DNA of 64,000 bases from contig OX442420.1 of NCBI GenBank assembly GCA_949361645.1, positions 5,439,882 through 5,503,881 on the forward strand, read 5' to 3'. Source of the stretch: Spongilla lacustris. Taxonomy: Eukaryota > Porifera > Demospongiae > Spongillida > Spongillidae. A model generated the notes under the pieces. It had not been told where the DNA came from and ran no database searches. It saw only the letters and a program-made list of their open reading frames with translations. Both the position numbers and the translations under genes were made by a program. Of this stretch, positions 12,641 through 33,827 are shown one piece after another. Position 1 is the stretch's first letter. The number at the start of each line of letters is the position of its first letter.

Positions 12641-12843
12641 ACCAGCCCGCTTTGGACAAATGGGAACACCACCACTGAAGCAGCCTATACGTTTTTGTGT
12701 TGTAGATCTGAACTAAATGTGTTTGTGCATGTACCGAGGCATGTACAGAGTAATTTTATCTGAAGCCATCTGTTAGTGGTGAATATAGTTACCAGCCCTA
12801 TCGGTACTGATTGCGGTAGGTCTGCACCCGTGGTTGGTTTATA

Positions 12844-13164
12844 TACACAAGCAGAGGGCTTTTTGAAAAGAACAAACCTACAACATACAGCTGGGAACTA
12901 CATGTAGTGCTTTACATTGTTGAGGTACAAGTAGCAAAACATGTAAGTGCCATTTAGAATGTGTGGCATGGTGAAGACATCAGAATTAATGACCACACAA
13001 GTGGAGTTAGTGGTCATGAATTCCTATGCTTCACCGTGCCAAATTGTAGCTGTGACTGCGCATGCAATTTATGTGACATTCTAAGTGGCACTTACATGTA
13101 TCTCAACATTGTAAAGCACTACCCAGTAAGCTTTATTCTTTTCAAAAAGCCCTCCGCTTGTGTA
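12844..13164. mobile_element. 321-bp Tc1/mariner-like MITE, left arm only
   Basis: The termini are inverted repeats: TACACAAGCAGAGGGCTTTT at the left and AAAAGCCCTCCGCTTGTGTA at the right. It is flanked by TA at 12842-12843 and 13165-13166. The mirrored site in the right arm (around 33828) reads GGTTTATA directly against the mariner-type terminus, so it is an empty site and confirms a TA target duplication. The element holds no coding region. It inserted within 2 bp of the terminus of the 20.7-kb element after the two arms had separated. Confidence 0.9.
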
Positions 13165-13166
13165 TA

Positions 13167-13799
13167 CAGGGTGATCCAAAAGTCGCGCAAAATGTTTGAA
13201 TTGCAATAACTTCAGAACTGAACATTGTAAAATTATGCTGTTTGAAGTAAAAATCATGCCAATGACTAACTTAAAGCTATTTATATGTAGTTATTAAAAG
13301 TTATTATTAAGTTTATTTAATACATGCCAATGCATTGATCAACAAGCAACAACCCCCAGAGAGTGTGTAAAAATTAATTTTTATAGCTATTAAATATTAC
13401 TTATCACGTGATCTACCTTATTTAAGGTTTTTGCGGGAAAACCCCCGCTCAAAGTCAAGCTATAGCATATAAATCACCAATATCGCGGTAAATCTATGCA
13501 AAGGAGCATCCAATAATCGTGCCAATAAACAGTTTACCATCTTGCCTGGTGCCTAACGAAGCCAAATGTTTAAAACGGAATTTATTAATTTCCGTTAACT
13601 GGACTTGTGAAAAGCAGAGTTTGAATTATTAGACCCGTAGAGGAAGTCATACTCTAATTGTGGAACTAACAATTGCATTGATTCGTGTTTTGGAAGCAGA
13701 GTTTAAAGCTGTTGAAGTTAGGCAGCGCTTACGCATGCGCGATATCCATATAAAATAATGTTAGGTCCGAGAACGACAGTTCCTCACGTGAACATAATT
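13167..13799. repeat. Terminal ~630 bp of the left mariner-type inverted repeat
   Basis: The block starts CAGGGTGATCCAAAAGTCGC, continues with AT-rich sequence, and includes CACGTGATCTACC, AAAACCCCCGCTC and a TATA-like ATATAAAATAA near 13750. By eye it is almost identical to the inverted copy at about 33195-33827. A CACGTGAACATAATT/AATTATCGCATTCACGTG dyad spans roughly 13788-13822. No gene is supported here. Confidence 0.8.
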
Positions 13800-14477
13800 G
13801 AATAATTATCGCATTCACGTGATACATTGCCACAACACAGCCCCACCCTCCTAAACTTTGCATCTCTGCAACATCATATTGCGGGCACTTTGCATTCACC
13901 TATCCGAATAGTCATCGTGGCCCATGCAGATGCAGGAGCAAATATTGTAAAGCCCAGCGTTTTTACCATCAATGACCCCAAGCCGTTAAATAAGTTGTTT
14001 CCCAGGCAGTGCTTCAGTGCTTTAAAAACACAGCATCTTTATAGAACCCAAATCATGCCATACCGCGCCGTTTGTAACAGCAGTAACGGTTTTAATAACA
14101 AACCAAACTCGGTGGGCATCATTTCAATTCGATCCATCGATCCGGCAAGTACGCGCGTACAGCACTGCAGCTACACGGGTGCATGTAACCACGTAGAGCA
14201 GAACGTGATTCATCAAAGACGCTATGGTATACGCGAATTGGTAAGCATCGGTTCAGAATGTAAGCCTACGTACTACGCACGGCGCATTCGTTTCCTGTAC
14301 GTTACAGACAGTATTCAGAGAAAACAGCGTCGTTTCGAGCAGAACCAACCCAACAACATGCAACTCGCTGAAACAGCTCGCACTGTAACGTCCCACCACG
14401 CTAAGGTACGTGTGCCTCAGGGGAGCAAGAACCAAAGAAGACTTCCAATGGTGCACATATTATTAATTAAGAGATGA
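13800..14477 (+). other. Unrecognised conserved block with an unstable open frame (left copy)
   Basis: An open frame of ~216 codons has no ATG at its start (it opens at TTG 13827) and matches no family I know. The mirrored copy at 32524-33190 is nearly identical in DNA but lacks 7 bp near 14270, so the reading frame and C-terminus differ. A third, degenerate copy of the last ~270 bp lies at 20131-20400. DNA conservation without frame conservation argues for a structural or regulatory segment of the element rather than a gene. Confidence 0.6.
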
Positions 14478-14589
14478 CCCAATGACATTAAAGGGGGTTC
14501 CAATGGTTCACCCATTAGAGGGGTCCCAATGGTCTGGACATCAAAGGAAATAAGAGGGTCTCTATCTCTTAGGTAGGACAGTGTCCATT

Positions 14590-17500
14590 GTCACAGAATG
14601 TGCATAGGGTGACTGCAGATGGAGCGAATGTGCTTGGTTAGAAAAATTCTTAGCTGATACCTCACTAGTGAGAAATGCGTGGGGAACACCCCTGGTGTAT
14701 TTTTGTAAATTCTGGGACACTATCAAGTGTCACAGAATGCGTAGGTTGACTGCAGATGGAGCGAATGTGCTTCCACTGCATGCCATGTTGAGCCATGTAC
14801 AGGAAGGTTGGGGGTGGTTAGAAAAATGTTTAGCTGAGTCCCCACTAGTGAGACATGTGTGGGGAACACCCCTGGTGTATTTTTGTAATTTCTGGGACAC
14901 TATCAAGTGTCACAGAATGCGTAAGATGACTGCAGATGTGCTTCCACTGCATGCCTTGTTGACACATTAACAGGAAGGGTAGGGGTGGTAAGAAAAATGT
15001 TAAGCTGAGTCCCCACTAGTGAAACATGTGTGATTAACACCCCTGGTGTATGTTTGTAATTTCTGGGACTCTATCAAGTGTCACAGAATGCATAGGTTGA
15101 CTGCAGATGGAGCGAATGTGCTTCCACTGCATGCCATGTTGACACATGTATAGGGAGGGTAGGGGTGAATAGAAAAATGTTTAGCTGAGTCCCCACTAGT
15201 GAAACATGTGTGTGGTACACAAATGTTGAGTTGGTGTAATTTCTGGGACACTGTCAAGTGTCACAGAATGCATTGGGTGACTGCAGATGTGCTTACACTG
15301 CATGCCTTGTGGACACATTTACAGGAAGGGTAGTGGTTGTTTGAAAAATGTTTAGCTGAGTCCACACTAGTGAGACATGTGTGGGGAAGACCCCTGGTGT
15401 ATATTTGTAAATTCTGGGACACTATCAAGTGTCACAGAATGCATAGAGTGACTGAAGAATGGATCGAATGTGTGTCCAGTGCATACCTTGTTAAGCTATG
15501 TACAGGAAGGGTAGGGGTGGTTAGAAAAATGTTTAGCTGAGTCCCCACTAGTGAGACATGTGTGGGGAAGACCGCTGGTGTGTGTTTGTAATTTATGGGA
15601 CTCTATCAAGTGTCGCAAAATGTGTAGGTTGACTTCAGATGGAGCGAATGTGCTTCCACTGCATGCCATGTTGAGCCATGTACAGGAAGGTTAGGGGTGG
15701 TTAGAAACATGTTTAGCTGAGTCCGAACTAGTGAGACATGTGTGGGGAACAACCCTGGTGTATTTTTGTAATTTCTGGGACACTATCAAGTGTCACAGAA
15801 TGCATAAGGTGACTGCAGATGTTCTTCCACTGCATGCCATGTTGACACATTTACAGGAAGGGTAGGGGTGGTTAGAAAAATGTTAAGCTGAGTCCCCATT
15901 AGTGAGACATGTGTGATGAACACCCCTGGTGTATGTTTGTAATTTCTGGGACACTATCAAGTGTCACAGAATGCATAGAGTGACTGTAGAATGGAGCAAA
16001 TGTGTGTCCAGTACATACCTTGTTAAGCCATGTACAGGAAGGGTAGGGGTGGTTAGAAAAATGTTTAGCTGAGGCCCCACTAGTGAGACATGTGTGGGGA
16101 AGACCCCTGGTGTGTTATTGTAATTTCTGGGACTCTATCAAGTGTAACAGAATGCATAGGATGACTTTAGATGGAGTGAATGCACTTCCACTGCATGCCT
16201 TGTTGACACATGTATAGGGAGGGTAGGGGTAGTTAGAAAAATGTTTAGCTGAGTCCCCACTAGTGAGACATGTGTGTGGTACACCACTGTTGAGTTGGTG
16301 TAATTTCTGGGACACTGTCAAGTGCCACAGAATGCATAGAGTGACTGTAGAATTGAGCAAATGTGTTTCCACTGCATGCCTTGTTGAGCCATGTACAGGA
16401 AGGGTAGGGGTGGTTAGAAAAGTGTTTAGCTGAGTCCCCACTAGTGAGACATGTGTGGGGAACACCCCTGGTGTATTTTTGTAATTTCTGGGAAACTATC
16501 AAGTGTCACAGAATGCAGATGTGCTTCCACTGCATGCCTTGTTGACACATGTATATGGAGTGTAGGGGTGGTTAGAAAAATGTTTTGTTGAGTCCCCACT
16601 AGTAAGACAAGTGTGTGATATACCACTGTTGAGTTGGTGTACTTTCTGGGACACTGTGAAGTGTCACAGAATGCATTGGGTGACTGCAGTATGGAGTGAA
16701 TGTGCTTCCACTGCATGCCTTGTTGTCACATGTACAGGAAGGGTAGGTGTGGTTTGAAAAATGTTTAGCTGAGTCCTCACTAGTGAGACATGTCTTGGGA
16801 GCACCCCTGGTGTATATTTGTAATTTCTGGGACTCTATCAACTGTCACAGAATGCATAGGATAACTGCAGATGGAGTGAATGTGTTTCCACTGCATGCCT
16901 TGTTGATACATGTACAGGAAGGGTAGGGGTAGTAAGAAAAATGTTTAGCTGAGTCCTTAATGTGTGGGGAACACCCCTTGTGTATATTTGTAATTTTTGG
17001 GACTCTATCAAGTGTCACAGAATGCATAGGGTGACTGCAAATGCTCTTCCACTGCATGCCTTGTTGACACATGTATGGGAAGGGTAGGGGTGGTTAGAAA
17101 AATGTTTAGTTGAGTCCCCACTAGTAAGACAAGTGTGTGATACACCACTGTTGAGTTGGTGTACTTTCTGGGACACTGTCAAGGCATTGGGTGACTGCAG
17201 AATGGAGCAAATATGTTTCCACTGCATGCCTTGTTGAGCCATGTACAGGAAGGGTAGGGGTGGTAAGAAAAATGTTTAGCTGAGTCCTTAATGTGTGGGG
17301 AACACCCCTTGTGTATTTTTGTAATTTCTGGGACTCTATCAAGTTTCACAGAATGCATAAGGTGACTGCAGATGTGCTTCCACTGCATACCTTGTTGACA
17401 CATTTACAGGAAGGGTAGGGGTGGTTAGAAAAATGTTTACCTGAGTCCCCACTAATGAGACATGTGTGGGGAACACGACTGATGTATGTTTGTAATTTCT

Positions 17501-20130
17501 GGGACTCTACCAAGTGTCACAGAATGCATTGGGTGACTGCAGAATTGAGCAAATGTGTTTCCACTGCATGCCTTGTTGACACATGTATGGGAAGGGTAGG
17601 GGTGGTTAGAAAAATGTTTAGTTGAGTCCCCACTAGTAAAACAAGTGTGTGATACACCACTGTTGAGTTGGTGTACTTTCTGGGACACTGTCAAGGCATT
17701 GGGTGACTGCAGAATGGAGCAAATGTGTTTCCACTGCATGCCTTGTTGAGCCATGTATAGGGTTATTTGAAAAATTTTTAGCTGAGTCCCCACTAGTGAG
17801 ACATGTGTGGGGAAGACCCCTGGTGTGTTTTTTGTAATTTCTGGGACTTTATCAAGTGTCACAGAATGCATAGGGTGACTGCAGATGGAGCGAATATGCT
17901 TCCACTACAGACCTTGTTGACACATGTATAGGAAGGTAGGGGTTGCTTGAAAAATGCTTAACTGAGTCCTCACTAGTGAGACATGTGTTTGGTACACCCC
18001 TGTTGAGTTGGTGTAATTTCTGGGTCACTATCAAGTGTCACAGAATGCATTGGGTGACTGCAGAATGGAGTGAATGTGTTTCCACTGCATGCCTTGTTGA
18101 CACATTATCAGGAAGGGTATGGGTGGTAAGAAAAATGTTTAGCTGTGACCTTAATGTGTGGGGAACAGCCCTTGTGTATTGTTTGTAATTTTTGGGACTC
18201 TATCAAGTGTCACAGAATGCATAGGGTGACAACAGATGTGCTTCCACTGCATGCCTTGTTGACACATTTACAGCAAGGGTAGGGGTGGTTAGAAAAATGT
18301 TTAGCTGAGTCCCCACTAATGAGACATGTGTGGGTAACACCATTGATGTATGTTTGTAATTTCTGGGACTCTATCAAGTGTCACAGAATGCATAGGTTGA
18401 CTGCAGAATTGAGCAAATGTGCTTCCACTGCATGCCATGTTGAAACATGTATAGGGAGGGTAGGGGTGAATAGAAAAAATGATTAGCTGAGTCCCCACTA
18501 GTGAAACTTGTGTGTGGTACACCAATGTTGAGTTGGGGACACTGTCAAGTGTCACAGAATGCATTGGGTGACTGCTGAATAGAGCAAATGTGTTTCCAAT
18601 GCATGCCTTGTTGAGCCATGTACAGGAAGGGTAGGGGTGGTTAGAAAAATGTTTAGCTGAGTCCCCACTAGTGAGACATGTGTGGGGAACACCCCTGGTG
18701 TATTTTTTGTAATTTCTGGGACACTATCACAGAATGCATAGGGTGATTGCAGATGGAGCGAATGTGCTTCCACTACAGACCTTGTTGACACATGTACAGG
18801 AATGTTAGGGGTGGTTAAAAAAATGTTTAGTTGAGTCCCCACTAGTAAGACAAGTGAGTGATACAACACTGTTGAGTTGGTGTACTTTCTGGGACAATGT
18901 CAAGGCATTGGGGTGACTGCAGAATGGAGCAAATGTGTTTCCACTGTATGCCTTGTTGAGCCATGTATAGGAAGGGTAGGGGTTGTTTGAAATATGGGAA
19001 AGTTTACGAGAAAAGGGACCTAGCGTGTATTATAAAAAAGTATAATAAAAATGCATTACGTTTGATTTGCTATAACTTCCGAACAGTTAACGCTATCAAC
19101 TTCCTATTTTCAACACTTCATACTGCACCATTTCTCTATGGTAAAATTCATTTTGGAGTCTTGCACTGGCTCCATGTCAGTATTGCAAGGTTCGATACCC
19201 CACTGGGTTCAAACCCGCCATAACTTTCGGTAGAAGTAATCAATTCCCTTCAAATTCGGTTTGTAGGTAGAGAGGTCCTATACCTATCGATTTGTTCTGT
19301 TCGTTAATTTTTATGCCATCCGTTACGGAGATACAGTTGAACAAACTACGTGCCCATTTTCGCGCCAATGATTTGGGTAAATTGCGTTCCGCTCAATGTA
19401 TGGGGAGGCGGGGATTATAACATTGGCGCGAATCAAGCGGGAAAACGTGCACGTAGTTTGTTCAACTGTATCTCCGTAACGGATGGCATAAAAATTAACG
19501 AACAGAACAAATCGATAGGTATAGGACCTCTCTACGTACAAACCGAATTTGAAGCGAATTGATTACTCCTACCGAAAGTTATGGCGGGTTTGAACCCAGT
19601 GGGGTATCGAACGTTGCAATACTGACACGGAGCAAATGCAAGACTCCAAAATGTATTTTACCATACAGAAATGGTGCAGTATGAAGTGCTGAAAATAGGA
19701 AGTTGATAGCGTTAACTGTTCGGAGGTTATAGCAAATCAAACCTAATGCATTTTTATTATACTTTTTTATAATACACGCTAGGTCCCTTTTCTCCCATAT
19801 GTTTAGCTGAGTCCCCACTAGTGAGACATGTGTGGGGAAGACCCCTGGTGTGTTTTTGATATTTCTGGGACTTTACCAAGTGTCACAGAATGCATAGGGT
19901 GACTGCAGATGGAGCGAATGTGCTTCCACTACAGACCTTGTTGACACATGTATAGGAATGGTAGGGGTTGTTAGAAAGATGCTTAACTGAGTCCTCACTA
20001 GTGAGACATGTGTTTGCTACACCCCTGTTGAGTTGGTGTAATTTCTGGGTCACTATCAAGTGTCATAGAATGCATTGGGTGACTGCAGAATAGAGTGAAT
20101 GTGTTTCCACTGCATGCTTTGTTGACACAT
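14590..20130. repeat. ~175-bp satellite array, left arm
   Basis: Tandem units of 170-182 bp each contain TTAGCTGAGTCCCCACTAGT, GAGACATGTGTGGGGAACA, TTTCTGGGACACTATCAAGT, GTCACAGAATGCATAGG and CTTCCACTGCATGCCTTGTT. There are nearly 30 units, interrupted by the foldback MITE at 18996-19796. Variants (TGTGTGGTACACC, internal deletions near the GGCATTGGGTGACTGC block) recur in non-adjacent units, a sign of unequal exchange. The 60-140-residue frames here are repeat artefacts. Confidence 0.92.
18996..19796. mobile_element. Foldback MITE of the DUF7869-linked family, copy 1
   Basis: An 801-bp palindromic element starts GGGAAAGTTTACGAGAAAAG and ends with its complement less ~9 bp. It interrupts a 175-bp satellite unit, which resumes with GTTTAGCTGAGTCC. 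ATAT borders both ends. Each half carries the subterminal block also seen upstream of the DUF7869-type gene (TAACGGATGGCATAAAAATT, CCTATACCTATCGATTTG, GGGTTCAAACCCGCC). The centre is a dyad around CATTGGCGCGAATCAAGC. No matching insertion is present in the right arm. Confidence 0.88.
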
Positions 20131-20400
20131 CTACATAAAGGGAAAAGTACAGAACCAGTTCAGCACTGTAGCTACACGGGTGCATGTAACCACATAGAGC
20201 AGAACATTATTGATCATAGACGGTATGTTGTACATGAATAAGTAATCATCAGTTCAGAATGTAAGCCCCGCGCATTTGTTTCCTGTTACAGACAGAAAAT
20301 AGCATCACTTCGAGCAGAACCAGCCCAACAACATGCAACTCGCTGAAACAGCTCGCACTGTAACGTCCCACCACGCTAAGGTATGTGTGCCTCAGGGGAG
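20131..20400 (+). repeat. Degenerate partial copy of the 14150-14430 block
   Basis: Segments such as GCTACACGGGTGCATGTAACC, GAGCAGAACCAGCCCAACAA and CATGCAACTCGCTGAAACAG match 14170-14430 with substitutions and small deletions. As at 14440-14570, it is followed directly by 26-bp GTCCCAATGGT repeats. The order block plus 26-bp units is therefore duplicated within the element. Confidence 0.8.
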
Positions 20401-22222
20401 CTAGGGCCTAATAGGGGTCCCAATGGTGTACACATAAGAGGGGTCCCAATGGTGCACACATAAGAGGGGTCCCAATGGTGTACACATAAGAGAGGTCCTG
20501 TTCGCGCACACATTAAAAGTTTTAATGGTGTACACAAAAGGGGGGTCCCAATGGTGCACACATAAGAGGGGTCCCAATGGTGTACACATAAGAGGGGTCC
20601 CAATGGTGTACACATATGAGGGGTCCCAATGGTGTACACATAAGAGGGGTCCCAATGGTGCACACATAAGAGGGGTCCCAATGGTGTACACATAAGAGGG
20701 GTCCCAATGGTGTACACATAAGAGGGGTCCCAATGGTGTACACATAAGAGGGGTCCCAATGGTGCACACATAAGAGGGGTCCCAATGGTGTACACATAAG
20801 AGAGGTCCTGTTCGCGCACACATTAAAAGTTTTAATGGTGTACACAAAAGGGGGGTCCCAATGGTGTACACATAAGAGGGGTCCCAATGGTGTACACATA
20901 AGAGGGGTCCCAATGGTGTACACATAAGAGGGGTCCCAATGGTGTACACAAAAGGGGGGTCCCAATGGTGTACACATAAGAGGGGTCCCAATGGTGTACA
21001 CATAAGAGGGGTCCCAATGGTGTACACATAAGAGAGGTCCCAATGGTGTACATATAAGAGGGGTCCCAATGGTGTACACATAAGAGGGGTCCCAATGGTG
21101 TACACATAAGAGGGGTCCCAATGGTGTACACATAAGAGGGGTCCCAATGGTGTACACATAAGAGAGGTCCCAATGGTGTACACATAAGAGGGGTCCCAAT
21201 GGTGTACACATAAGAGGGGTCCCAATGATGCACACATAAGAGGGGTCCCAATGGTGTACACATAAGAGGGGTCCCAATGGTGTACACATAAGAGAGGTCC
21301 CAATGGTGTACATATAAGAGGGGTCCCAATGGTGTACACATAAGAGGGGTCCCAATGGTGTACACATAAGAGGGGTCCCAATGGTGTACACATAAGAGGG
21401 GTCCCAATGGTGTACACATAAGAGGGGTCCCAATGGTGTACACATAAGAGGGGTCCCAGTGGTGCACACATAAGAGGGGTCCCAATGGTGTACACATAAG
21501 AGAGGTCCTGTTCGCGCACACATTAAAAGTTTTAATGGTGTACACAAAAGGGGGGTCCCAATGGTGCACACATAAGAGGGGTCCCAATGGTGTACACATA
21601 AGAGGGGTCCCAATGGTGTACACATATGAGGGGTCCCAATGGTGTACACATATGAGGGGTCCCAATGGTGCACACATAAGAGGGGTCCCAATGGTGTACA
21701 CATAAGAGGGGTCCCAATGGTGTACACATAAGAGAGGTCCTGTTCGCGCACACATTAAAAGTTTTAATGGTGTACACAAAAGGGGGGTCCCAATGGTACA
21801 CATAAGAGGGGTCCCAATGTTGTACACATATAAGGGGTCCCAATGGTGTACACATAAGAGGGGTCCCAATGGTGCACACATAAGAGGGGTCCCAATGGTG
21901 CACACATAAGAGGGGTCCCAATGGTGTACACATAAGAGGGGTCCCAATGGTGCACACATAAGAGGGGTCCCAATGGTGCACACATAAGAGGGGTCCCAAT
22001 TGTGCACATATAAGAGGGGTCCCAATGGTGTACACATAAGAGAGGTCCCAATGGTCCACACATAAGAGGGGTCCCAATGGTGCACACATAAGAGAGGTCC
22101 CAATGGTGGACACATAAGAGAGGTCCTGTTCACGCACACATTAAAAGTTTTAATGGTGTACACAAAAGGGGGGTCCCACTGTTGTGTGGTCCCTATAGTG
22201 TAAACATTAGAGGGGTCCCAAT
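20401..22222. repeat. 26-bp tandem repeat array with periodic variant units
   Basis: About 70 copies of a 26-bp unit containing GGGGTCCCAATGGTGTACAC and ATAAGA. A variant segment (GTCCTGTTCGCGCACACATT then AAAAGTTTTAATGG) interrupts it at about 20495, 20805, 21505, 21737 and 22123. Because 26 is not a multiple of 3 and the unit lacks minus-strand stops, all three minus frames stay open for up to 483 codons. The resulting peptides (repeats of CVHHWDPSYVYTIGTPLMC) have nothing else to recommend them as proteins. Confidence 0.95.
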
Positions 22223-23031
22223 GGTGATATACATGTACATTGTAGGTCACTCTGCAAACTAAATGAGGGATATCTTTACCCATTCTTACTACCAGCTATG
22301 CAGAGAGCTTCCTCTCCATTTGGTCACGTGTCTCTAAATTGCTGCTAAATTGATAGGTAAAAATTTTTGCCTTACACCTAAAAGTATGTCCCACTGCCTT
22401 TTCTTTCACTACCAGTAAGGCATTTAGATGCCTCACTTGGGACTTCTCATACAATTGCACCATTGGTACCCCTCTTATTTGTAATGACTTTGTTATCTTG
22501 TAATTTGGCGGTGGAAAAAGTATAAGGTGAGTATGGAGGCAGAGTAGCAGAACAGATTGGAGACAGAGAGATGTGGGAGATGTGTGAAAAATGAATGCAT
22601 CAATGAATGAAGATATTCCTTCCTGTATATTTATACATGAATGGTTTACATGTGTGTGTATGTGTGTGTGTTTGTGTTTTCTTAAGACTAGTATCTTGTT
22701 TCTACTCAGTCTATGTTACTTGCAAGCTAAAGAGGCAAACATTGAGACTTTGGAGAGGTAAATTAAAAAAGAAACAAGACTTCTAGTAAAGGTATGTCTC
22801 CTCAAGTACATAAGTATGTGTCTGCATGTCTTTATGTTCTCCACACTAGGACCATGCTTCTTTGGATGAAGTAACAACTGGAGATACCGATCAATCCTTT
22901 CCTACTGCATAATGGAAATTTGTTTTAGTGACATGACTATCTGTTTTTGTTTTGTGTAGTGTATTTATTGCAAATATCAATTTTTAGAAGCTTGATGTGG
23001 TAATATGTATCGTGTGACAAGAAAGCATAGG

Positions 23032-23108
<77 letters not shown>

Positions 23109-24080
23109 CTATTTCACTATTAATCAACTAAACTCATGGTCCAGAAAACAGAACTGCCAACCTCTGTTTTGGAAGCTGAGAGACCTCTTTTAAATTGCCT
23201 AAAATAGGTACTTTTCTCTCTATCACTGAGGCAGATGACACAGTGGAACCTTTCTGTAACTGAGACTTCTGTGCAACAGCGGAATTACTCCCCACTGCTT
23301 GTGCAACCATAGGACCTTTATCTGTGCATGTTGGACAGAGGAACCTTTCTTTCTGCTTTCATGAATATGTGTGAGATAGGATGGGTAGGAGGATTGTGGG
23401 AGGTTGCAGGTGTCATAATCAATGCAAATTATTCATAGAGGTCATGGGGAGGTGTTTTAAGCCCCTCCTCTTACTGCACTACTAGACATCAAAGGAATAC
23501 ACATTCTGTTTGCTTTCTCATGCTCCTATTGGCCTGCAGGTACATGTGATACCGTTCATAAGGTCAGATACTCCCAAGAAAAAGGCTCTTCTACACCACA
23601 CACATGCACTCCCAAAGGATACATGTAACAGCCAGCAACTTCATTCATTCACACTCCTATCCCATCCTCACCATACATCTATCTGCCACCTTTCTACAAC
23701 TTTATCTCCCTGTCTCCCATCTCCCTATGCTAAGAAACTACATTTAGGTCTGGTGAGTTATTCTATGCTCCCATGCACGTGACCACACAAGTGTGTGTGC
23801 AGTTAAACCTAACCATGTTCTCACAATTACACAAATAAATAAGATACTGTTAAAAATAGACTGAATTTTAAAATCACAGTCTTACATATTTACATGTACA
23901 TATGCAAACACACACAATAATACATTGACACTAATACAGATAACATATAAGATAATATGGTACCTATGTTAATATCCTCCATCAGATTGAATACATTTTG
24001 ATGTAGGACTGAAAAGCAATAAACCTCAATATCATGTGCCTGTGAGAAAGTACAGGAAATAAGGATCAATTAGCTGTAGT
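22223..24080. other. Central spacer left of the transposase; (GT)n only
   Basis: This is non-palindromic sequence inside the 20.7-kb element. It contains a (GT)n tract at 23034-23106 and otherwise ordinary AT-rich DNA. I found no convincing coding frame, RNA gene or transposon terminus. The longest frames lack family features. Confidence 0.6.
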
Positions 24081-24087
24081 GCATTTT

Positions 24088-24196
24088 GGCGGGAACCAAT
24101 AGAAACACTCCACTGTGATTGGGCGGGAACCAATAGAATCACTTCAGCACTGTGATTGGCGGGAACCAATAGAATTGCTCCACTGCACTATAAAAG
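24088..24196 (+). promoter_or_regulatory. Transposase promoter: three CCAAT repeats and a TATA box
   Basis: The motif GGCGGGAACCAATAG occurs three times, at 24088-24102, 24122-24136 and 24158-24172 (spacing 34 and 36 bp). A TATAAAAG box lies at 24189-24196, 45 bp upstream of the ATG at 24241. Repeated CCAAT boxes followed by TATA are a standard RNA polymerase II core layout. The TATA position favours 24241 over the earlier in-frame ATG at 24115. Confidence 0.75.
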
Positions 24197-24240
24197 CACT
24201 GCAGGGAAAAAAACTACATACTGAAGTCATTTTGTACAGC

Positions 24241-25314
24241 ATGTCTGGAGCAAAGCTTACAAAGGATCAGAGAGTGACTATTGTGATGCTTTATGCAGAA
24301 ACGAGAAATGCAAGTGAAACAGTTAGACAGTTCAAGGTGAAGTATCCTGGACATGGTACTCTAAGCCCATCCACTGTGCTAAGGACAGTGAAACGATTCT
24401 ATGACACTGGTGGCACAGATGATCGTAAACGTTCAGGGAGGAGGAGAAGTGGAAGAAGTCCAGTCAACATACAGGCTATAGATAGGAAAATCAATGATGA
24501 CCCTGAGTTATCATTGAGGCGAATATCATGTGCCACAGATATACCATATAGCACAGTACGAACAATTGTCAGAAAAGACTTGAAGATGAAAGCGTACAGG
24601 AGCAGAATGGTTCAGGAACTGAAACAAGGAGACCACGAGAAAAGAGTGGAATGGGCAGAGGAATGGTTGGAGAAGGTCGAGTACAACAATGAATATGAGG
24701 AGAATATTTTGTGGATGGATGAGGCAATATTTAAATTAAATGGTAAAGTAAACATCCATAATGCAATCACATGGGCCAAAACCAATCCTCAAAAAACAGT
24801 TGACAGGGCATATAAAAAGGAAGGCATCATGGTCTGGTGTGGACTCCTTAATGATGAAATCATAGGACCCTACTTTTTTGAACAGGGCACAGTGACAGGA
24901 AAGTCATATCTAGGAATGTTAAAACGCCTTTGGCCATATCTCCAATCATCTCTTGATGAGGACAAAATTGAGGAAATAATATTTCAACAAGATGGAGCAC
25001 CATCTCACTATTTTCATGAAGTCACTGAATGGCTAAACAACACCTTCGAGGACAGATGGATGGGCCGTGGAGGGCCAATTCCATGGCCTGCAAGAAGTCC
25101 GGATTTGACACCTTTGGATTTTTGGCTTTGGGGTTACCTGAAAGGAATTGTGTACGCACAGAGCCCCAAAACTATCCCAGACCTCAAACAAGCCATATCA
25201 GATGCCATCAGTGATATACCGAACCAAATGGTTAAAAATGCTACTAAATGTGTAACTAAAAGAGCACAAAAGATTGTTGAAGTTTTAGGACTACATATAG
25301 AAAACTACTTTTAG
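24241..25314 (+). CDS. DD41D Tc1/mariner-type transposase, intact
   Basis: The 357-residue protein would bind the element's inverted repeats and catalyse cut-and-paste at TA sites. Residues 1-60 form a helix-turn-helix of the DUF4817 style (KDQRVTIVMLYAE, then STVLRTVKRFYDTGG). A basic linker RKRSGRRRSGRSP precedes a second HTH (SLRRISCATDIPYSTVRTI, 91-109). The catalytic core shows WMDEAIF with D160, FQQDGAPSH with D251, and WPARSPDLTPLDFW with D293. D251 and D293 are separated by 41 residues, giving DD41D, a spacing reported for the rosa-like mariner group. The frame has no stop, frameshift or intron. The ATG at 24241 lies 45 bp after a TATA box. It sits in the unpaired centre of the large inverted-repeat element. 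Its own compact inverted repeats were not seen, so it may serve the large element's CAGGGTG termini. Confidence 0.9.
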   Translation: MSGAKLTKDQRVTIVMLYAETRNASETVRQFKVKYPGHGTLSPSTVLRTVKRFYDTGGTDDRKRSGRRRSGRSPVNIQAIDRKINDDPELSLRRISCATDIPYSTVRTIVRKDLKMKAYRSRMVQELKQGDHEKRVEWAEEWLEKVEYNNEYEENILWMDEAIFKLNGKVNIHNAITWAKTNPQKTVDRAYKKEGIMVWCGLLNDEIIGPYFFEQGTVTGKSYLGMLKRLWPYLQSSLDEDKIEEIIFQQDGAPSHYFHEVTEWLNNTFEDRWMGRGGPIPWPARSPDLTPLDFWLWGYLKGIVYAQSPKTIPDLKQAISDAISDIPNQMVKNATKCVTKRAQKIVEVLGLHIENYF

Positions 25315-26180
25315 AACTTATTTGTGCAAGCTATTATGTCAATAGTGTAATCCAAGTGCATATTATTGTAACTGCGAGTTAATTTGTATTAACAGTACAG
25401 TGATCCATAGACACTTGCCATTCAAACTTGCACAACCATAACCCTCTCTCCCAGAACAAGTTACAGTAGCTCCCTCTGTCAATGTGCATTGCCCTATTGT
25501 GGGTGGAGCTCATTATAACTACATAGGATTCCACAAATGCACATAACTCCCTTCATATTTGCCTTTGTTATCATGTTATTACTAAAAACTGTACATACAG
25601 GTCTTTACACACAAAAACACATAATGGGAGTCATGTGACCTTGACAATTCTTTATCATGTAGTACACTTGAAGATGGAGGTAACACTGGGGACAGTGCAT
25701 GGTCCAGGGCATAAAGACAAGTGCATAGAGACGTACTTGAGGCAGCACAACTCTACTCTGCAGGTACATTATGTACACCACATACCACTGATTCCTGAAA
25801 TAGATGGGGTAGCATAAGGCTCAAGCACTCAGTACTAGTGTAAAAAATGAGCACTAATGCACAAACACTTTAGAACCTTCACTGTAAGTTAGACACAGAC
25901 ACCATTATCCACAATTTAGACAGTTAGACCCCTCTGTACAAAGCTGACAATTTATACCAGTCATGGTGAGAGACAACCCATTCATACAAGAGAGGCAGAG
26001 AGACCTTTATCCACACAGCAACACCTATGTAATAATGAGATAAAGAGATTTCTCTCAACCAGTCTGCACACTATCATCTTGAGACACACAAGCCACTTTT
26101 AGCAGTCAGAAAGAGAGATAAATATCTATCAGCAACAGTCTGAAACACCCCACTGTTCCTGTGACGGAGAACCAGACAGA
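25315..26180. other. Central spacer right of the transposase
   Basis: AT-rich DNA from the transposase stop to the start of the right 175-bp array. No polyadenylation-type hexamer stands out, and I see no second gene. Repeated short phrases such as GACCTTTATCCACACAG occur near 26005 but form no clear repeat. The right inverted arm begins at about 26180. Confidence 0.5.
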
Positions 26181-26189
26181 ATCCACAAA

Positions 26190-29100
26190 CACACCACTGG
26201 TGTTCAACACCCATGTTTGACTACTGGGGACCGAGCCAGTAGGGACTCAGCTAAACAGTTTTCAAACCACCCATACCCTTTCTATAGATCTGTCAACAAG
26301 GCATGCAGTGGAAGCACATTCGAACCATTCTGCAGTCACCTTTTGCATTCTGTGACACTTGACAGTGTCCCAGAAATTACACCAACTCAACAGTGGTGTA
26401 CCACACACATGTCTCACTAGTGGGGACTCAGCTAAACATTTTTCTATTCACCCCTACCCTCCCTATACATGTGTCAACATGGCATGCAGTGGAAGCACAT
26501 TCACACCATCTGCAGTCACCCTATGCATTCTGTGACACTTGATAGAGTCCCAGAAATTACAAAAAATACACAAGGGGTGTTCCCCACACATTAAGGACTC
26601 AGCTAAACATTTTTCTTACCACCCCTACCCTTCGTGTACATGGCTCAACAAGGCATACAGTAGAAACATATTTGCTCCATTCTGCAGTCACCCAATGCCT
26701 TGACATTGCCCCAGAAAGTACATCAACTCAACAGTGGTGTATCACACACTTGTCTTACAAGTGGGGACTCAACTAAACATTTTTCTAACCACCCCTACCC
26801 TCCCCATACATGTGTCAACAAGGCATGCAGTGGAAGCGCATTCACTCCATCTGAAGTCACCCTATGCATTCTGAGACTCTTGATAGTGTCCCACAAATTA
26901 CAAACATACACCAGTGGTGTTCCCAAAACATGTCTAACTAGTGGGGACTCAGCTATACATTTTTCAAACCACACCTACCCTTCCTGTACATGTGACAACA
27001 AGGCATGCAGTGGAAGCACATTCACTCCATACTGCTTCACCCAATGCATTCTGTGACACTTCACAGTGTCCCAGAAATTACCCCAACTCAACAGTGTTGT
27101 TTCACACACTTGTCTTACTAGTGGGTACTCAACTAAACATTTTTCCAACCACCCCTACCCTCCCTATACATATGTCAACAAGGCATGCAGTGGAAGCACA
27201 TTCACTTCATCTGCAATCACCCTATGCATTCTGTGACACTTGATAAAGTCCCAGAAATTACAAAAATACACAACGGCTGTTCCCCACACATTAAGGACTC
27301 AGCCAAACATTTCTCTCACCACCCATACCCTTCCTGTACATGTCTCAACAAGGCATGCAGTGGAAACACATTCACTCAATTCTGCAGTCACCCAATGCAT
27401 TCTGTGACACTTGATAGTGACCCACAAATTACACCAACTCAACAGGGGTGTACCAAACACATGTCTCACTAGTGAGGACTCAGTTAAGCATTTTTCAAAC
27501 AACCCATACCATTCCTATACAAGTGTCAACAAGGCATGCACTGGACACACATTCGCTCTATCCTGCAGTCACTCTATGCATTCTGTGACACTTGATAGTG
27601 TCCCAGAATTTACAAAAACACACCAGAGGTCTTCCCCACACATGTCTCACTAGTGGGGACTCAGCTAAATATTTTTCTAACTACCCCTACCCTTCCTGTA
27701 AATGTGTCAACAAGACATGCAGTGGGAGCACATTTGCCATCACCCTATGCATTCTGTGACACTTGATAGAGTCCCAAAAATTACAAAAATACACCAGGGG
27801 TGTTCCCCACAGATTAAGGACTCAGCTAAACATTCTTCATACCACCCCTACCCTTCCAGTACATGGCTCAACAAGGCATGCAGTAGAAACATATTTGCTC
27901 CATTCTGCAGTCACCCAATGCCTTGACACTGTCCAAAAAAGTACACCAACTCAACAGTGGTGTATCACACACTTGTCTTACTAGTGGGGACTAAACTAAA
28001 CATTTTTCTAACCACCCCTACCCTCCCTATACATGTGTCAACAAGGCATGCTGTGGAAGAACATCTGCAGTCACCTTATGCATTCTGTGACACTTGATAG
28101 TGTCCCAGAAATTACAAAAATACACCAGGGGTGTTCCGCACACATGTCTCACTAGTGGCGACTCAGCTAAAGACTTTTCTAACCACCCCTACCCTTCCAG
28201 TACATGGCTCAACAAGGCATGCAGTGGAAACACATTTGCTCAATTCTGCAGTCACCATATGCATTCTGTGACACTTGATAGTGTCCCAAAAATTACACCA
28301 ACTCAACAGTGGTGTACCACACACATGTCTCACTAGTGGGGACTCAGCTAAATACTTTTCTAACCACCCCTACCCTCCCTATACATGTGTCAACAAGCCA
28401 TGCAGTGGAAGTGCAATCACTCCATCTGCAGTCATCCTATGCATTCTGTGACACTTGATAGAGTCCCAGAAATTACAAATATACACCAGGGGTCTTCCCC
28501 ACACATGTCTCACTAGTGGAGACTTAGCTAAACATTTTTATAACCACCCCTACCCTTCCTGTACATGGCTCAACAAGGCATGCAGTAGAAACATATTTTC
28601 TCCATTCTGCAGTCACCCAATGCCTTGACAGTGTCCCAGAAAGTACACCAACTCAACAGTGGTGTATCACACACTTGTCTTACTAGTGGGGACTCAACTA
28701 AACAATTTTCTAACCACCCCTACCCTCCCTATACATGTGTCAATAAAGCATGCTGTGGAAGAACATCTGCAGTCACCTTATGCATTCTGTGACACTTGAT
28801 AGTGTCCCAGAAATTACAAACATACACCAGGGGTCTTCCCCACAAATGTCTCACTAGTGGGGACTCAGCTAAACATTTTTCTAACCACCCCTACCCTTCC
28901 TGTACATGGCTTAACAAGGTATGTACTGGACACACATTTGCTCCATTCTACAGTCACTCTATGCATTCTGTGACACTTGATAGTGTCCCAGAAATTACAA
29001 AAATACACCAGGGGTGTTCATCACACATATCTCACTAATGGGGACTCAGCTAAACATTTTTCTAACCACCCCTACCCTTCCTGTACATGGCTCAACAAGG

Positions 29101-32100
29101 CATGCAGTGGAAACATATTTGCTCCATTCTGCAGTCACCCAATGCCTTGACAGTGTCCCAGAAAGTACACCAACTCAACAGTGGTGTATCACACACTTGT
29201 CTTACTAGTGGGGACTCAACTAAACATTTTTCTAACCACCCCTACCCTTCCCATACATGTGTCAACAAGGCATGCAGTGGAAGAGCATTTGCAGTCACCC
29301 TATGCATTCTGTGACACTTGATAGAGTCCCAGAAATTACAAAAATACACTAGGGGTGTTCCCCACACATTAAGGACTAAGCTAAACATTTTTCTTACCAC
29401 CCCTACCCTTCCTGTACATGTATCAACAAGGCATGCAGTGGAAACACATTCACTCCATCTGCAGTCATCCTATGCATTCTGTTACACTTGATAGAGTCCC
29501 AGAAATTACAAATATACACCAGGGGTCTTCCCCACACATGTCTCACTAGTGGGGACTCAGCTAAACATTTTTCTAACCACCCCTACCCTTCCTGTACATG
29601 GCTCAACAAGGCATGCAGTAGAAACATATTTGCTCCATTCTGCAGTCACCCAATGCCTTGACATTGTCCCAGAAAGTACACCAACTCAACAGTGGTGTAT
29701 CACACACTTGTCTTACTAGTGGGGACTCAAATAAACAATTTTCTAACCACCTATACATGTGTCAACAAAGCATGCTGTGGAAGAACATCTGCAGTCACCT
29801 TATGCATTCTGTGACACTTCACAGTGTTCCAGAAGTTACAAAAATACACCAGGGGTGTTCCCCACACATGTCTCACTAGTGGGGACTCAGCTAAACATTT
29901 TTCTAACCACCCCTACCCTTCCTGTACATGGCTTAACAAGGTATGTACTGGACACACATTTGCTCCATTCTACAGTCACTCTATGCATTCTGTGACACTT
30001 GATAGTGTCCCAGAAATTACAAACATACACCAGGGGTCTTCCCAACACATGTCTCACTAGTGGGGACTCAGCTAAACATTTTTCTAACCACCCCTACCCT
30101 TCCTGTACATGGCTTAACAAGGTATGTACTGGACACACATTTGCTCCATTCTACAGTCACTCTATGCATTCTGTGACACTTGATAGTGTCCCAGAAATTA
30201 CAAAAATACACCAGGGGTGTTCATCACACATATCTCACAAATGGGGACTCAGCTTAACATTTTTCTAACCACCCCTGCCCTTCCTGTAAATGTGTCAACA
30301 TGGCATGCAGTGGAAGAACATCTGCAGTCACCTTATGCATTCTGTGACACTTGATAGTGTCCCAGAAATTACAAAAATACACCAGGGGTATTCCCCACAC
30401 ATGTCTCACTAGTTCGGACTCAGCTAAACATTTTTCTAACCACCCCTAACCTTCCTGTACATCGCTCAACATGGCATGCAGTGGAAGCACATTCGCTCCA
30501 TCTGAAGTCAACCTACGCATTTTGCGACACTTGATAGAGTCCCATAAATTACAAACATACACCAGCGGTCTTCCCCACGCATGTTTCACTAGTGGGGACT
30601 CAGCTAAACATTTTTCTAACCACCCCTACTTTTCCTGTACATGGCTCAACAAGGCATGCAGTGGAAACATATTTGCTCCATTCTGCAGTCACCCAATGCC
30701 TTGACAGTGTCCCAGAAAGTACACCAACTCAACAGTGGTGTATCACACACTTGTCTTACTAGTGGGGACTCAACTAAACATTTTTCTAACCACCCCTACC
30801 CTTCCCATACATGTGTCAACAAGGCATGCAGTGGAAGAGCATTTGCAGTCACCCTATGCATTCTGTGACACTTGATAGAGTCCCAGAAATTACAAAAATA
30901 CACAAGGGGTGTTCCCCACACATTAAGGACTAAACTAAACATTTTTCTTACCACCCCTACCCTTCCTGTACATGTATCAACAAGGCATGCAGTGGAAACA
31001 CATTCACTCCATGTGCAGTCATCCTATGCATTCTGTTACACTTGATAGAGTCCCAGAAATTACAAATATACACCAGGGGTCTTCCCCACACATGTCTCAC
31101 TAGTGGGGACTCAGCTAAACATTCATCTAACCACCCCTACCCTTCCTGTACATGGCTCAACAAGGCATGCAGTAGAAACATATTTGCTCCATTCTGCAGT
31201 CACCCAATGCCTTGACATTGTCCCAGAAAGTACACCAACTCAACAGTGGTGTATCACACACTTGTCTTACTAGTGGGGACTCAGCTAAACATGTTTCTAA
31301 CCACCCCTAACCTTCCTGTACATGGCTCAACATGGCATGCAGTGGAAGCACATTCGCTCCATCTGAAGTCAACCTACGCATTTTGCGACACTTGATAGAG
31401 TCCCATAAATTACAAACACACACCAGCGGTCTTCCCCACACATGTCTCACTAGTGGGGACTCAGCTAAACATTTTTCTAACCACCCCTACCCTTCCTGTA
31501 CATGGCTTAACAAGGTATGCACTGGACACACATTCGATCCATTCTTCAGTCACTCTATGCATTCTGTGACACTTGATAGTGTCCCAGAATTTACAAATAT
31601 ACACCAGGGGTCTTCCCCACACATGTCTCACTAGTGTGGACTCAGCTAAACATTTTTCAACCAACCACTACCCTTCCTGTAAATGTGTCCACAAGGCATG
31701 CAGTGTAAGCACATCTGCAGTCACCCAATGCATTCTGTGACACTTGACAGTGTCCCAGAAATTACACCAACTCAACATTTGTGTACCACACACATGTTTC
31801 ACTAGTGGGGACTCAGCTAAACATTTTTCTATTCACCCCTACCCTCCCTATACATGTGTCAACATGGCATGCAGTGGAAGCACATTCGCTCCATCTGCAG
31901 TCAACCTATGCATTCTGTGACACTTGATAGAGTCCCAGAAATTACAAACATACACCAGGGGTGTTAATCACACATGTTTTACTAGTGGGGACTCAGCTTA
32001 ACATTTTTCTTACCACCCCTACCCTTCCTGTAAATGTGTCAACAAGGCATGCAGTGGAAGCACATCTGCAGTCACCTTACGCATTCTGTGACACTTGATA

Positions 32101-32400
32101 GTGTCCCAGAAATTACAAAAATACACCAGGGGTGTTCCCCATACATGTCTCACTAGTGGGGACTCAGCTAAACATTTTTCTAACCACCCCTAACCTTCTT
32201 GTACATGGCTCAACATGGCATGCAGTGGAAGCACATTCGCTCCATCTGCAGTCAACCTACGCATTCTGTGACACTTGATAGTGTCCCAGAATTTACAAAA
32301 ATACACCAGGGGTGTTCCCCACGCATTTCTCACTAGTGAGGTATCAGCTAAGAATTTTTCTAACCAAGCACATTCGCTCCATCTGCAGTCACCCTATGCA
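26190..32400. repeat. ~175-bp satellite array, right arm (inverted)
   Basis: This is the same satellite as at 14590-20130 in opposite orientation, with units such as AACAAGGCATGCAGTGGAAG, TGCATTCTGTGACACTTGAT, CAGAAATTACA and ACTAGTGGGGACTCAGCTAA. It has about 35 units, more than the left arm, so copy number has drifted since the arms formed. Open frames of 60-118 codons here carry only repeat-derived residues. Confidence 0.92.
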
Positions 32401-33827
32401 CATTCTGTGACAATGGACACTGTCCTACCTAAGAGATAGAGACCCTCTTATTTCCTTTGATGTCCAGACCATTGGGACCCCTCTAATGGGTGAACCATTG
32501 GAACCCCCTTTAATGTCATTGGGTCATCTCTTAATTAATAATATGTGCACCATTGGAAGTCTTCTTTGGTTCTTGCTCCCCTGAGGCACACGTACCTTAG
32601 CGTGGTGGGACGTTACAGTGCGAGCTGTTTCAGCGAGTTGCATGTTGTTGGGTTGGTTCTGCTCGAAACGACGCTGTTTTCTCTGAATACTGTCTGTAAC
32701 GTACAGGAAACGAATGCGCCGTGCGTAGGCTTACATTCTGAACCGATGCTTACCAATTCGCGTATACCATAGCGTCTTTGATGAATCACGTTCTGCTCTA
32801 CGTGGTTACATGCACCCGTGTAGCTGCAGTGCTGTACGCGCGTACTTGCCGGATCGATGGATCGAATTGAAATGATGCCCACCGAGTTTGGTTTGTTATT
32901 AAAACCGTTACTGCTGTTACAAACGGCGCGGTATGGCATGATTTGGGTTCTATAAAGATGCTGTGTTTTTAAAGCACTGAAGCACTGCCTGGGAAACAAC
33001 TTATTTAACGGCTTGGGGTCATTGATGGTAAAAACGCTGGGCTTTCCAATATTTGCTCCTGCATCTGCATGGGCCACGATGACTATTCGGATAGGTGAAT
33101 GCAAAGTGCCCGCAATATGATGTTGCAAAGATGCAAAGTTTAGGAGGGTGGGGCTGTGTTGTGGCAATGTATCACGTGAATGCGATAATTATTCAATTAT
33201 GTTCACGTGAGGAACTGTCGTTCTCGGACCTAACATTATTTTATATGGATATCGCGCATGCGTAAGCGCTGCCTAACTTCAACAGCTTTAAACTCTGCTT
33301 CCAAAACACGAATCAATGCAATTGTTAGTTCCACAATTAGAGTATGACTTCCTCTACGGGTCTAATAATTCAAACTCTGCTTTTCACAAGTCCAGTTAAC
33401 GGAAATTAATAAATTCCGTTTTAAACATTTGGCTTCGTTAGGCACCAGGCAAGATGGTAAACTGTTTATTGGCACGATTATTGGATGCTCCTTTGCATAG
33501 ATTTACCGCGATATTGGTGATTTATATGCTATAGCTTGACTTTGAGCGGGGGTTTTCCCGCAAAAACCTTAAATAAGGTAGATCACGTGATAAGTAATAT
33601 TTAATAGCTATAAAAATTAATTTTTACACACTCTCTGGGGGTTGTTGCTTGTTGATCAATGCATTGGCATGTATTAAATAAACTTAATAATAACTTTTAA
33701 TAACTACATATAAATAGCTTTAAGTTAGTCATTGGCATGATTTTTACTTCAAACAGCATAATTTTACAATGTTCAGTTCTGAAGTTATTGCAATTCAAAC
33801 ATTTTGCGCGACTTTTGGATCACCCTG
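32401..33827 (-). repeat. Right counterpart of 13167-14590, mariner-type terminal block
   Basis: It contains the mirrored 26-bp-like units (32450-32520), the unrecognised conserved block (32524-33190, open frame 32613-33167 minus) and the terminal ~630 bp ending in CAGGGTG at 33827. Compared with the left copy I noticed one amino-acid-changing substitution (AATATTGGAAAG against AATATTGTAAAG) and a 7-bp deletion near 32727. Otherwise the two look nearly identical by eye. Confidence 0.85.

Follow-up and report, generated by a model that had tools for sequence, protein, structure and literature searches.

Tc1/mariner is the best-understood transposase superfamily, with solved relatives such as Mos1 and Sleeping Beauty, and its enzymes are usually found on elements of 1–2 kb. 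Giant eukaryotic transposons, such as Maverick and Teratorn, carry many genes. Why foldback elements possess kilobases of internally repetitive inverted arms is an old puzzle.

The DD41D elements of the aphid LTIR/Lsra clade were described with terminal inverted repeats (TIRs) of ~460 bp and lengths of 1.3–2.4 kb (PMC5490172), and bee DD41D elements with complete ORFs are 1.0–2.3 kb long (PMC8472432). Long TIRs that are internally repetitive and variable in length surround the transposase gene of Galileo, a foldback-like member of the P superfamily in Drosophila (PMC3573991, PMC3688188). The TIRs of Tetris, a foldback element of Drosophila virilis, contain a satellite-like tandem repeat termed TIR-220 (PMC4079207), and the Tm1 Mutator/Foldback elements of root-knot nematodes bear composite TIRs in which the number of tandem units varies (PMC3169594). 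Here, we analyze a locus of the sponge Spongilla lacustris that is very probably a giant foldback-type Tc1/mariner (DD41D) transposon, which is mobile as one unit and inserts at TA.

Structure of the element

The window, namely the whole stretch of 64,000 nucleotides that was analyzed, contains one mobile unit of 20,661 bp at positions 13167–33827, as was originally predicted. CAGGGTGATCCAAAAGT is found at 13167–13183 (forward strand) and, pointing inward from the opposite end, at 33811–33827 (reverse strand), with no further match in the window at up to three mismatches (chance 0.14). Both ends abut a TA (13165–13166 on the left and 33828–33829 on the right), which is present as a single TA in the exact empty sites (see below) and thus represents the target duplication.

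The left arm starts with an outer (flanking) domain at 13167–14634 (forward), which begins with CAGGGTGATCCAAAAGTCGCGCAAAATGTTT and is judged to be non-coding; ~1.3 kb of this domain can be aligned between the two subfamilies described below, and a few degenerate 26-mers, recognized by eye, follow. A satellite array with units of ~171–181 bp occupies 14635–18996 (forward). Its counterpart in the opposite orientation is located at 26238–32366 (reverse) and is followed by the right outer domain at 32367–33827 (reverse), which terminates in the inverted CAGGGTGATCCAAAAGT. Between the two arrays lie a 26-bp minisatellite, TAAGAGGGGTCCCAATGGTGTACACA, at 20409–22126 (forward; 66.5 copies, 1.7 kb), the length of which varies among the copies of the element, and a unique centre at 23089–26233 (forward), delimited by its colinearity with other copies. 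The arms align with each other over 13160–18996 and 33834–28001 at 87% identity. The original prediction of inverted repeats of ~7 kb, with a ~175-bp satellite making up most of the length of the element, holds for the inverted arrangement and approximately for the period, but the left and right arms are ~5.8 and ~7.6 kb long, respectively (the satellite of the latter extending to 26238), and the two arrays, with ~25 and ~35 units in the two arms, together make up about half of the element.

Copies and target sites

We searched a single genome assembly with the terminal 31-mer and found 159 matches at up to three mismatches, while the reversed control gave none. The 137 mapped ends among them were used for pairing, and 104 of these formed 52 inward pairs with spans of 5.0–25.9 kb and none shorter than 5 kb, leaving 33 ends unpaired; shuffling (1000 times) gave a mean of 0.77 and a maximum of 5 inward pairs. 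The copies belong to two subfamilies, G and C, and 12 elements (11 of G and one of C, C1ct) were read whole, nine of which are large (eight of G, spanning 14.7–25.9 kb, and C1ct). All of the 30 G-type ends examined, taken from 58 exact ones, are flanked by TA, as are 18 of the 20 C-type ends examined, the other two lacking it.

The empty site of the window element, with a single TA, is present in the same genome at four loci with 100% identity over 198 of 198 bp and at four further loci with 99% identity, among 41 matches in all. It reads CTTGTGTATATAAACC and not GGTTTATATAAACC as had been expected. A diverged paralogous empty site, a copy of the same target repeat with no insertion, adjoins the element at 12761–12962 (reverse; 81% over 203 columns). 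Altogether, the boundaries of the window copy are exact, the element has inserted at many different places, as the original prediction of further copies with the same boundaries demanded, and it duplicates TA as is characteristic of the Tc1/mariner superfamily.

The transposase and the element centre

The centre contains an intact ORF at 24241–25314 (forward), which starts with an ATG and encodes 357 amino acids followed by a stop codon. Three residues, D160, D251, and D293, are invariant in an alignment of 31 sequences, and, judged by the 41-residue spacing between the latter two, the protein is a DD41D transposase. A profile search matched Mos1 across its full length with an E-value of 2.7e-25, and the best Foldseek matches were Mos1 complexes; the protein is therefore regarded as a DDE/D transposase homologous to those of Mos1 and Sleeping Beauty, that is, of Tc1/mariner type. 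The best named match was from Anolis at 35% identity, a protein of Ephydatia muelleri (P0058) was found lower among the matches (43% over 42% of the query), and the matches included no sequence named as rosa or VS.

Of the 11 G elements read whole, the eight large ones carry this Mos1-like gene in their centre, and all 357 codons are open in four of the eight gene copies. The mean dN/dS among the four open copies was 0.35 over six pairs (range 0.12–0.86), with few substitutions underlying these values. The stretch at 24086–24199 (forward), in which approximately three 34-bp repeats with GGCGGGAACCAAT precede a TATAAAA, is a putative promoter of the gene. Its motifs were counted in eight copies; the CCAAT/TATA promoter originally proposed together with the intact transposase is a consensus reading only. 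Apart from the transposase, and with tandem repeats set aside, the 12 copies read whole contain no ATG-started ORF of at least 150 amino acids, which sets the element apart from the multi-gene giant transposons.

The other seven gene-bearing G copies have a centre colinear with that of the window copy, at 93–98% identity, although the alignment was split in two in C3ab_500 and C6b and covered only part of C3c. No short inverted repeats bounding the gene were found, and we reject a compact mariner nested in a larger element on the basis of this and of the colinear centre. A compact DD41D element elsewhere in the genome, which had been named in advance as an observation against the prediction, was checked for among the mapped copies: the seven other G centres are colinear, no such short repeats bound the gene, and no pair is below 5 kb.

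It could still be argued that a compact mariner came by chance to lie within a non-autonomous satellite foldback element of another origin, its transposase being a passenger, as small copies of 5.0, 6.4, and 7.6 kb lack the gene and the C-type copy read whole contains arrays but no working gene. We regard this as very improbable. The TA duplication fits Tc1/mariner, all eight large G copies read whole possess the gene within a colinear centre, no short inverted repeats flank it, and the centre of the C-type copy appears to retain what is left of a sibling gene, namely its first codons and a promoter-like stretch (by eye, in one copy). Judging from that single copy read whole, the C subfamily looks non-autonomous. 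We propose that the transposase encoded by the element recognizes the common terminal sequence (the CAGGGTGATCC ends) and cuts and pastes the whole element, and that the C-type copies would have been moved in trans.

Two subfamilies and their tandem arrays

The division into subfamilies with different arrays, the near-confinement of these arrays to the element, and the identity of the arms anchored at the termini are observations that go beyond the original prediction. G and C share the ends and the ~1.3-kb outer domain, but the arrays comprise the ~180-bp satellite in G and a 27-bp minisatellite in C. As searched with exact words only, 86 of the 100 satellite matches listed (of 293) and 77 of the 81 minisatellite matches lay inward of a mapped end by no more than 26 kb, either within a mapped element or close inside an end mapped singly. 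Thus, both arrays are nearly confined to this element family, and the description of ordinary genomic satellite DNA, with long arrays independent of one transposon, does not apply to them. As in foldback elements, the long TIRs combine a flanking domain with tandem arrays and vary in length both within and between copies.

We considered whether the outer domain is coding, since it contains TTG-started ORFs of 216 and 184 amino acids. This was rejected, as the ORFs have no Pfam match and the differences between G and C are evenly distributed over codon positions (46/136, 41/135, and 38/135, with 20 gap positions; element positions 855–1280).

The possibility that the array units are copies of the element end received no support from comparisons with shuffled sequences. 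No match between the terminal 60 bp and any of the three array units was better than those of shuffles: the score of the end against the 180-bp unit was reached by 79 of 300 shuffles, and those of the end against the 26-mer and of the C-type end against the 27-mer by 300 of 300 each. For the outer domain against the 180-bp unit, 294 of 300 shuffles reached the score. Marginal values were obtained for the outer domain against the 26-mer (16 of 300), the C-type outer domain against the 27-mer (9), and the 26-mer against the 27-mer (8), and none of the 300 shuffles reached the score of the centre against the 180-bp unit, but that match sits at the array edge.

The same comparisons bear on what the arms may be for. 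In Galileo, the tandem repeats contain transposase-binding sites (PMC3688188), and the arms of the sponge element might likewise be retained as arrays of multiple binding sites, which would be consistent with the lack of pairs under 5 kb among the 52 inward pairs (137 mapped ends). Such a role is possible, if on the unlikely side. It finds no sequence support here because the terminal motif does not occur above chance in the array units; furthermore, G and C have common ends but different arrays, and three copies with reduced arrays are also flanked by TA. In the account that we prefer, the arrays would expand and shrink via slippage or unequal exchange and would be tolerated, as the sequence recognized is located close to the ends.

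Identity between the two arms of a copy

In the window copy, 13167–15724 (forward) of the left arm is nearly identical to 31277–33827 (reverse; 2,551 bp) of the right arm, the two differing by 12 events across 2,558 alignment columns. Eight of the nine large elements read whole share this feature, their arms being nearly identical from the terminus inward to an element-specific break at 1.9–5.6 kb.

Near identity over kilobases would also be produced if the inverted arms were mere reflections made by the assembler, and C1ct indeed has a perfect palindrome that extends 2,453 bp into both flanks, perhaps as an assembly artefact. For the element in general, however, this explanation is hardly credible. 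The arms differ deeper in, both in unit number and in sequence, as the original prediction had pointed out; the flanks of ten C-type copies agree at only 71–100 of 300 palindromic positions; the 25-bp flanks of 11 G copies differ between the two sides (by eye); and the exact empty sites and the 52 inward pairs are not in line with reflections.

We then compared the arms in windows of 200 bp in the eight large G elements. Before the break, 169 of 182 windows showed the own arm to be at least as close as any of 14 other arms. After the break, this was the case in 25 of 174 windows (in the window copy, 12 of 22 still favored the own arm over the closest other one), a count that sets one arm against 14 candidates, so that only the means can be compared fairly there: 0.932 identity to the own arm and 0.931 to other arms. 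Past the break, the own arms are thus no closer to each other than to those of other copies. The nearest relative of an arm end was the other arm of the same copy in eight of 11 G elements (C3c by a near tie) and four of five C elements, the exceptions being C6a, C5c, and two C5 sisters. Each type was compared among itself (ten G elements whole and one by its ends), and C19, with a shared end of only 845 bp, was left out.

Near the termini, the arms within most copies read whole are therefore more alike than those of different copies. The C5 sisters have different flanks, show 0–2 differences per 200 bp over 3.8 kb per arm, are otherwise separated by one ~45-bp gap, and have one break common to both copies. 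Arm copying at each transposition is ruled out as obligatory because this pair shares its break.

Alternatively, the identity may have arisen with no copying between arms, simply because the copies are young or had parents with identical arms. All copies are young, with G-type outer domains 1–2% apart, and the sister pair has its break in common, both of which would fit. Youth alone is nevertheless an improbable explanation, as the own arm is the nearest relative in the majority of elements and its excess ends at a copy-specific break, beyond which the distance to the own arm is no smaller than that to other arms. We rather propose that one arm end is occasionally rewritten by copying from the other that extends to the very terminus, the candidate routes being arm-to-arm gene conversion and foldback-templated repair of a broken end. 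Identity anchored at the terminus and ending at an element-specific break is new.

More tentatively, and with considerable doubt, the arms may serve as mutual templates for repair, an end broken in an abortive cut or while excised, or otherwise eroded, being rebuilt from the other arm to the exact terminus. If so, selection would favor long arms for preserving the function of both ends. Foldback architectures, which have evolved in a number of unrelated superfamilies, would then act as end-healing devices, with the breeding of satellite DNA as a by-product.

Comparison with known transposons

This young family comprises dozens of paired copies, some with open genes, and has exact empty sites, and the history of its arms can be read base by base. 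Its units of 15–25 kb carry an enzyme family typical of 1–2-kb elements and suggest how satellite DNA may be bred within transposons and spread by them. The role of the arms becomes testable in a system with solved relatives. The element had been predicted to be of a new type, and its novelty should be read with the fact that the foldback architecture itself is already known in Mutator and P elements; for Tc1/mariner, full-text literature searches found none among the matches listed.

Tm1 resembles the window element in that the unit number differs between the two TIRs of one element, but it is Phantom/Mutator-like and has a 9-bp target-site duplication (TSD), units of 13–15 bp, and TIR pairs with an average identity of 93% (PMC3169594). 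Tetris shares the tandem satellite-like repeat within TIRs; its authors placed it in Mutator, with a TSD of 8–10 bp, and no autonomous copy of it was found (PMC4079207). In Tetris, the repeat and the flanking domain have a 37-bp stretch in common, while the 180-bp unit here matches the outer domain no better than shuffles do. Maverick, Teratorn, and other giant eukaryotic transposons also exceed 15 kb, Teratorn with long inverted repeats, and a term search of the main text of the review on them gave no occurrence of Tc1 or mariner (PMC6431247).

Galileo is like the window element in its long, repetitive, length-variable TIRs around a transposase gene, albeit with a transposase of another superfamily. 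Its TIRs in D. mojavensis are at most ~1.26 kb long, and the 210-bp repeats of one subfamily number no more than three (PMC3573991), in contrast to the dozens of satellite units (~25 and ~35) in the arms of the window copy. Finally, rosa, VS, and LTIR/Lsra possess the same DD41D triad as the window element, but the DD41D relatives described in aphids and bees are 1.0–2.4 kb long, whereas the large G copies reach 14.7–25.9 kb and hold satellite arrays in multi-kilobase arms.

Layout of the element and its neighbourhood

The window lies at C6:5439882-5503881 in a genome assembly of 248.6 Mb and 51 contigs. Two inward-pointing CAGGGTGATCCAAAAGT ends had been predicted at window positions 13167 and 33827, and both were found there; no other end at up to three mismatches occurs in the window (0.14 expected), and the element measures 20,661 bp between the two. 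An outer domain of ~1.47 kb at the left end, which has an inverted counterpart at the right end, is followed inward by satellite repeats with a unit length of 171-181 bp (14635-18996) and a 26-bp minisatellite (20409-22126); next come a unique centre and the right satellite array (26238-32366), inverted relative to the left one. The transposase ORF (ATG at 24241) is the sole ATG-started ORF of at least 150 aa outside the tandem repeats. One set of TTG-started ORFs (216 and 184 aa) was detected in the two outer domains of this copy and was judged non-coding from the comparison of the two subfamilies described below.

The element is flanked at ~2-2.5 kb on either side by a 2.2-kb inverted pair (8497-10635 and 35753-37935; 90% identical). 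Two adjoining ORFs of 625 and 272 aa lie on the minus strand at 5645-8341, the former matching DUF7869 above the cut-off and C2H2 fingers weakly; this pair is perhaps another mobile or multicopy gene. A MITE-like repeat occurs at 8750-8882, 18992-19129, 19673-19794, 37547-37687 and 38231-38370, two copies being inside the giant element, and was also found as the target of a C-type insertion on contig C5. Positions 1-4204 are occupied by a large tandem array of 71/415-bp units.

A large family of mobile units

The element belongs to a large family, in which two subfamilies share the termini: the G type, including the window copy, carries the ~180-bp satellite, and the C type a 27-bp minisatellite. 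The terminal 31-mer has 58 exact occurrences genome-wide and its one-base variant, typical of the C type, 76; with near matches, 159 were found at up to three mismatches (0 for the reversed control). The search for other loci bearing both ends, suggested with the original prediction, yielded 52 inward pairs from 104 of the 137 ends listed, leaving 33 without a partner, against a mean of 0.77 pairs (maximum 5) in 1000 random placements. Among these listed ends, the 24 G-type pairs span 5.0-25.9 kb (median 16.7) and the 28 C-type pairs 11.5-17.5 kb (median 16.2), and none of the 52 is shorter than 5 kb. Two giant G copies are separated by 224 bp at C3:2913564-2950475. In the 25-kb G copy at C6:9159714-9184710, other tandem repeats with periods of 20-474 bp sit between element positions 8075 and 14050, in a region where ~7.9 kb interrupts the centre.

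The target of the window insertion is a member of another repeat family, and a 198-base empty site was built by joining the two flanks at a single TA. The matches to this site occupy at least 41 places genome-wide, a lower bound as scoring covered 40 of the 652 first-look candidates, and the best of them cover all 198 bases at 100% (four places) or 99% (four places) within the same genome; a diverged copy lies ~200 bp from the element at the same locus. The exact empty sites fix both element boundaries and demonstrate the TA duplication. The predicted TA flanks were borne out across the family, as TA borders 30/30 G-type and 18/20 C-type ends examined. The element is one mobile unit.

The transposase

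The predicted DD41D transposase was corroborated: D160, D251 and D293 are invariant in the homologue alignment, giving the DD41D signature, and a profile of 31 homologues matched Mos1 over its length (E 2.7e-25) and also the catalytic domain of Sleeping Beauty. In Pfam, DUF4817 was above the cut-off and a Tc3-type HTH below it. The AlphaFold2 model had a mean pLDDT of 87.8 with Mos1 complexes as the top structural matches.

The gene is present in 8 of the 11 G-type elements read whole, being absent from the copies of 5.0, 6.4 and 7.6 kb, and the frame is open across all 357 codons in 4 of the 8. The mean dN/dS over six pairs of open copies was 0.35 (range 0.12-0.86, with few substitutions), which suggests, albeit does not prove, purifying selection on the transposase. 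Across the seven other gene-bearing copies, the centre aligns colinearly at 93-98%. The alignment is continuous for C1a, C3ab_22706, C5 and C9, falls into two blocks for C3ab_500 and C6b, and covers only part of the centre for C3c. A compact element nested in the giant one was rejected as the source of the gene, because short inverted repeats bounding it were looked for and none was found. The gene is preceded by about three 34-bp repeats with GGCGGGAACCAAT, plus TATAAAA; at least one GGCGGGAA and TATA were found in 7 of the 8 copies, and neither in C3ab_500. We take TTGGCGGGAA in these repeats (24086-24185) to resemble an E2F site; if it is one, this putative site would suggest S-phase expression.

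Arrays of the two subfamilies

The end is common to both types, as is ~1.3 kb of alignable, non-coding outer domain, inward of which stands the 180-bp satellite in G and a 27/54-bp minisatellite in C. The layout, not the array sequence, is conserved between them. The C-type interior is represented by one copy read whole (C1ct) and a second whose centre was read in part. By eye, the C1ct centre comprises a promoter-like stretch, ~20 codons resembling the transposase start and then array; the C type thus looks non-autonomous.

The arrays hardly occur outside the elements. For a 30-base satellite word with 293 exact matches genome-wide, 86 of the 100 matches listed are no more than 26 kb inward of a mapped end, and the other 14 belong to three C1 loci (C1:17348457-17359820, C1:15758954-15761967 and C1:2384018), one with the same inverted layout. 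For a 53-base minisatellite word, the corresponding number is 77/81, the remaining four being together at C17:2981697-2984224. The words lacking a nearby listed end may mark elements that have diverged or been broken, or arrays that have escaped.

Probable copying between the arms

In the outer 1.4 kb, the two arms of an element are mutually closest in 8/11 G-type (C3c being a near tie) and 4/5 C-type elements. This near identity starts at the terminus and extends inward to a break, located 2,558 bp from the terminus in the window copy, 1,893 bp in C1a, 1,927 bp in C3ab_500, 3,811 bp in C3ab_22706, 2,918 bp in C5, 2,324 bp in C6b, 2,826 bp in C9 and 5,560 bp in C1ct; C3c (1,554 bp, 12 differences) showed no excess of own-arm identity. 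The own arm and 14 other arms were compared in 200-bp windows across the eight large G elements. Before the break, the own arm equalled or exceeded the best of these 14 in 169/182 windows (mean identity 0.997 versus 0.967); past it, this held in 25/174 (0.932 versus 0.931), where the means decide, as the best-of-14 test favours other arms. The window copy departs from this in part: its own arm still won 12/22 windows beyond the break. Judged from these identities, the arms have probably been copied from one another, beginning at the terminus. As the own-arm excess ends at the break, the deep arrays are common to copies, and rewriting of the terminal parts has probably taken place within lineages.

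Two C5 sister copies with different flanks have one break in common (~2.8 kb), which counts against a tight link of arm copying to transposition. At C1ct (C1:8147040-8164011), the perfect inverted symmetry does not end with the element: both flanks share it for 2,453 bp, after which it stops abruptly mid-contig. This symmetry is either an inverted flank duplication by copying past the terminus, as expected if a break on one side were repaired with the other arm as template, or an assembly artefact (reflection).

We propose that the encoded enzyme would cut and paste the whole unit via sequence near the ends, and that C-type copies may borrow it. The array length probably shifts through ordinary tandem-repeat processes, and one arm would at times be rewritten from the other, either by simple gene conversion that stops where homology ends or by eroded-end repair on the folded-back element.

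Comparison with known elements

By signature, the closest enzyme group is DD41D, whose clades, to one of which the element may belong, include rosa (TIR ~30 bp, ~1.3 kb; PMC5490172), the aphid LTIR clade (TIR ~460 bp, 2.3-2.4 kb; PMC5490172) and, in bees, VS (1.0-2.3 kb; PMC8472432). In architecture, the closest are the foldback elements Tetris (PMC4079207), Galileo (PMC3688188, PMC3573991) and Tm1 (PMC3169594), which resemble the element in this respect but were assigned by their authors to Mutator or P, whereas the element here is Tc1/mariner. The comparison of the ends with the array units gave no sequence support for a binding-site role of the arrays as in Galileo. A term search found neither Tc1 nor mariner in the main text of a giant-transposon review (PMC6431247), and no foldback-type or satellite-armed Tc1/mariner was named in the titles or abstract starts among the literature matches listed, which cover subscription journals thinly and leave such absence unproven. 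What appears to be new here is the satellite-armed foldback architecture on a DD41D Tc1/mariner, with unusual size and copy number, in a family in which the history of arm copying is legible.
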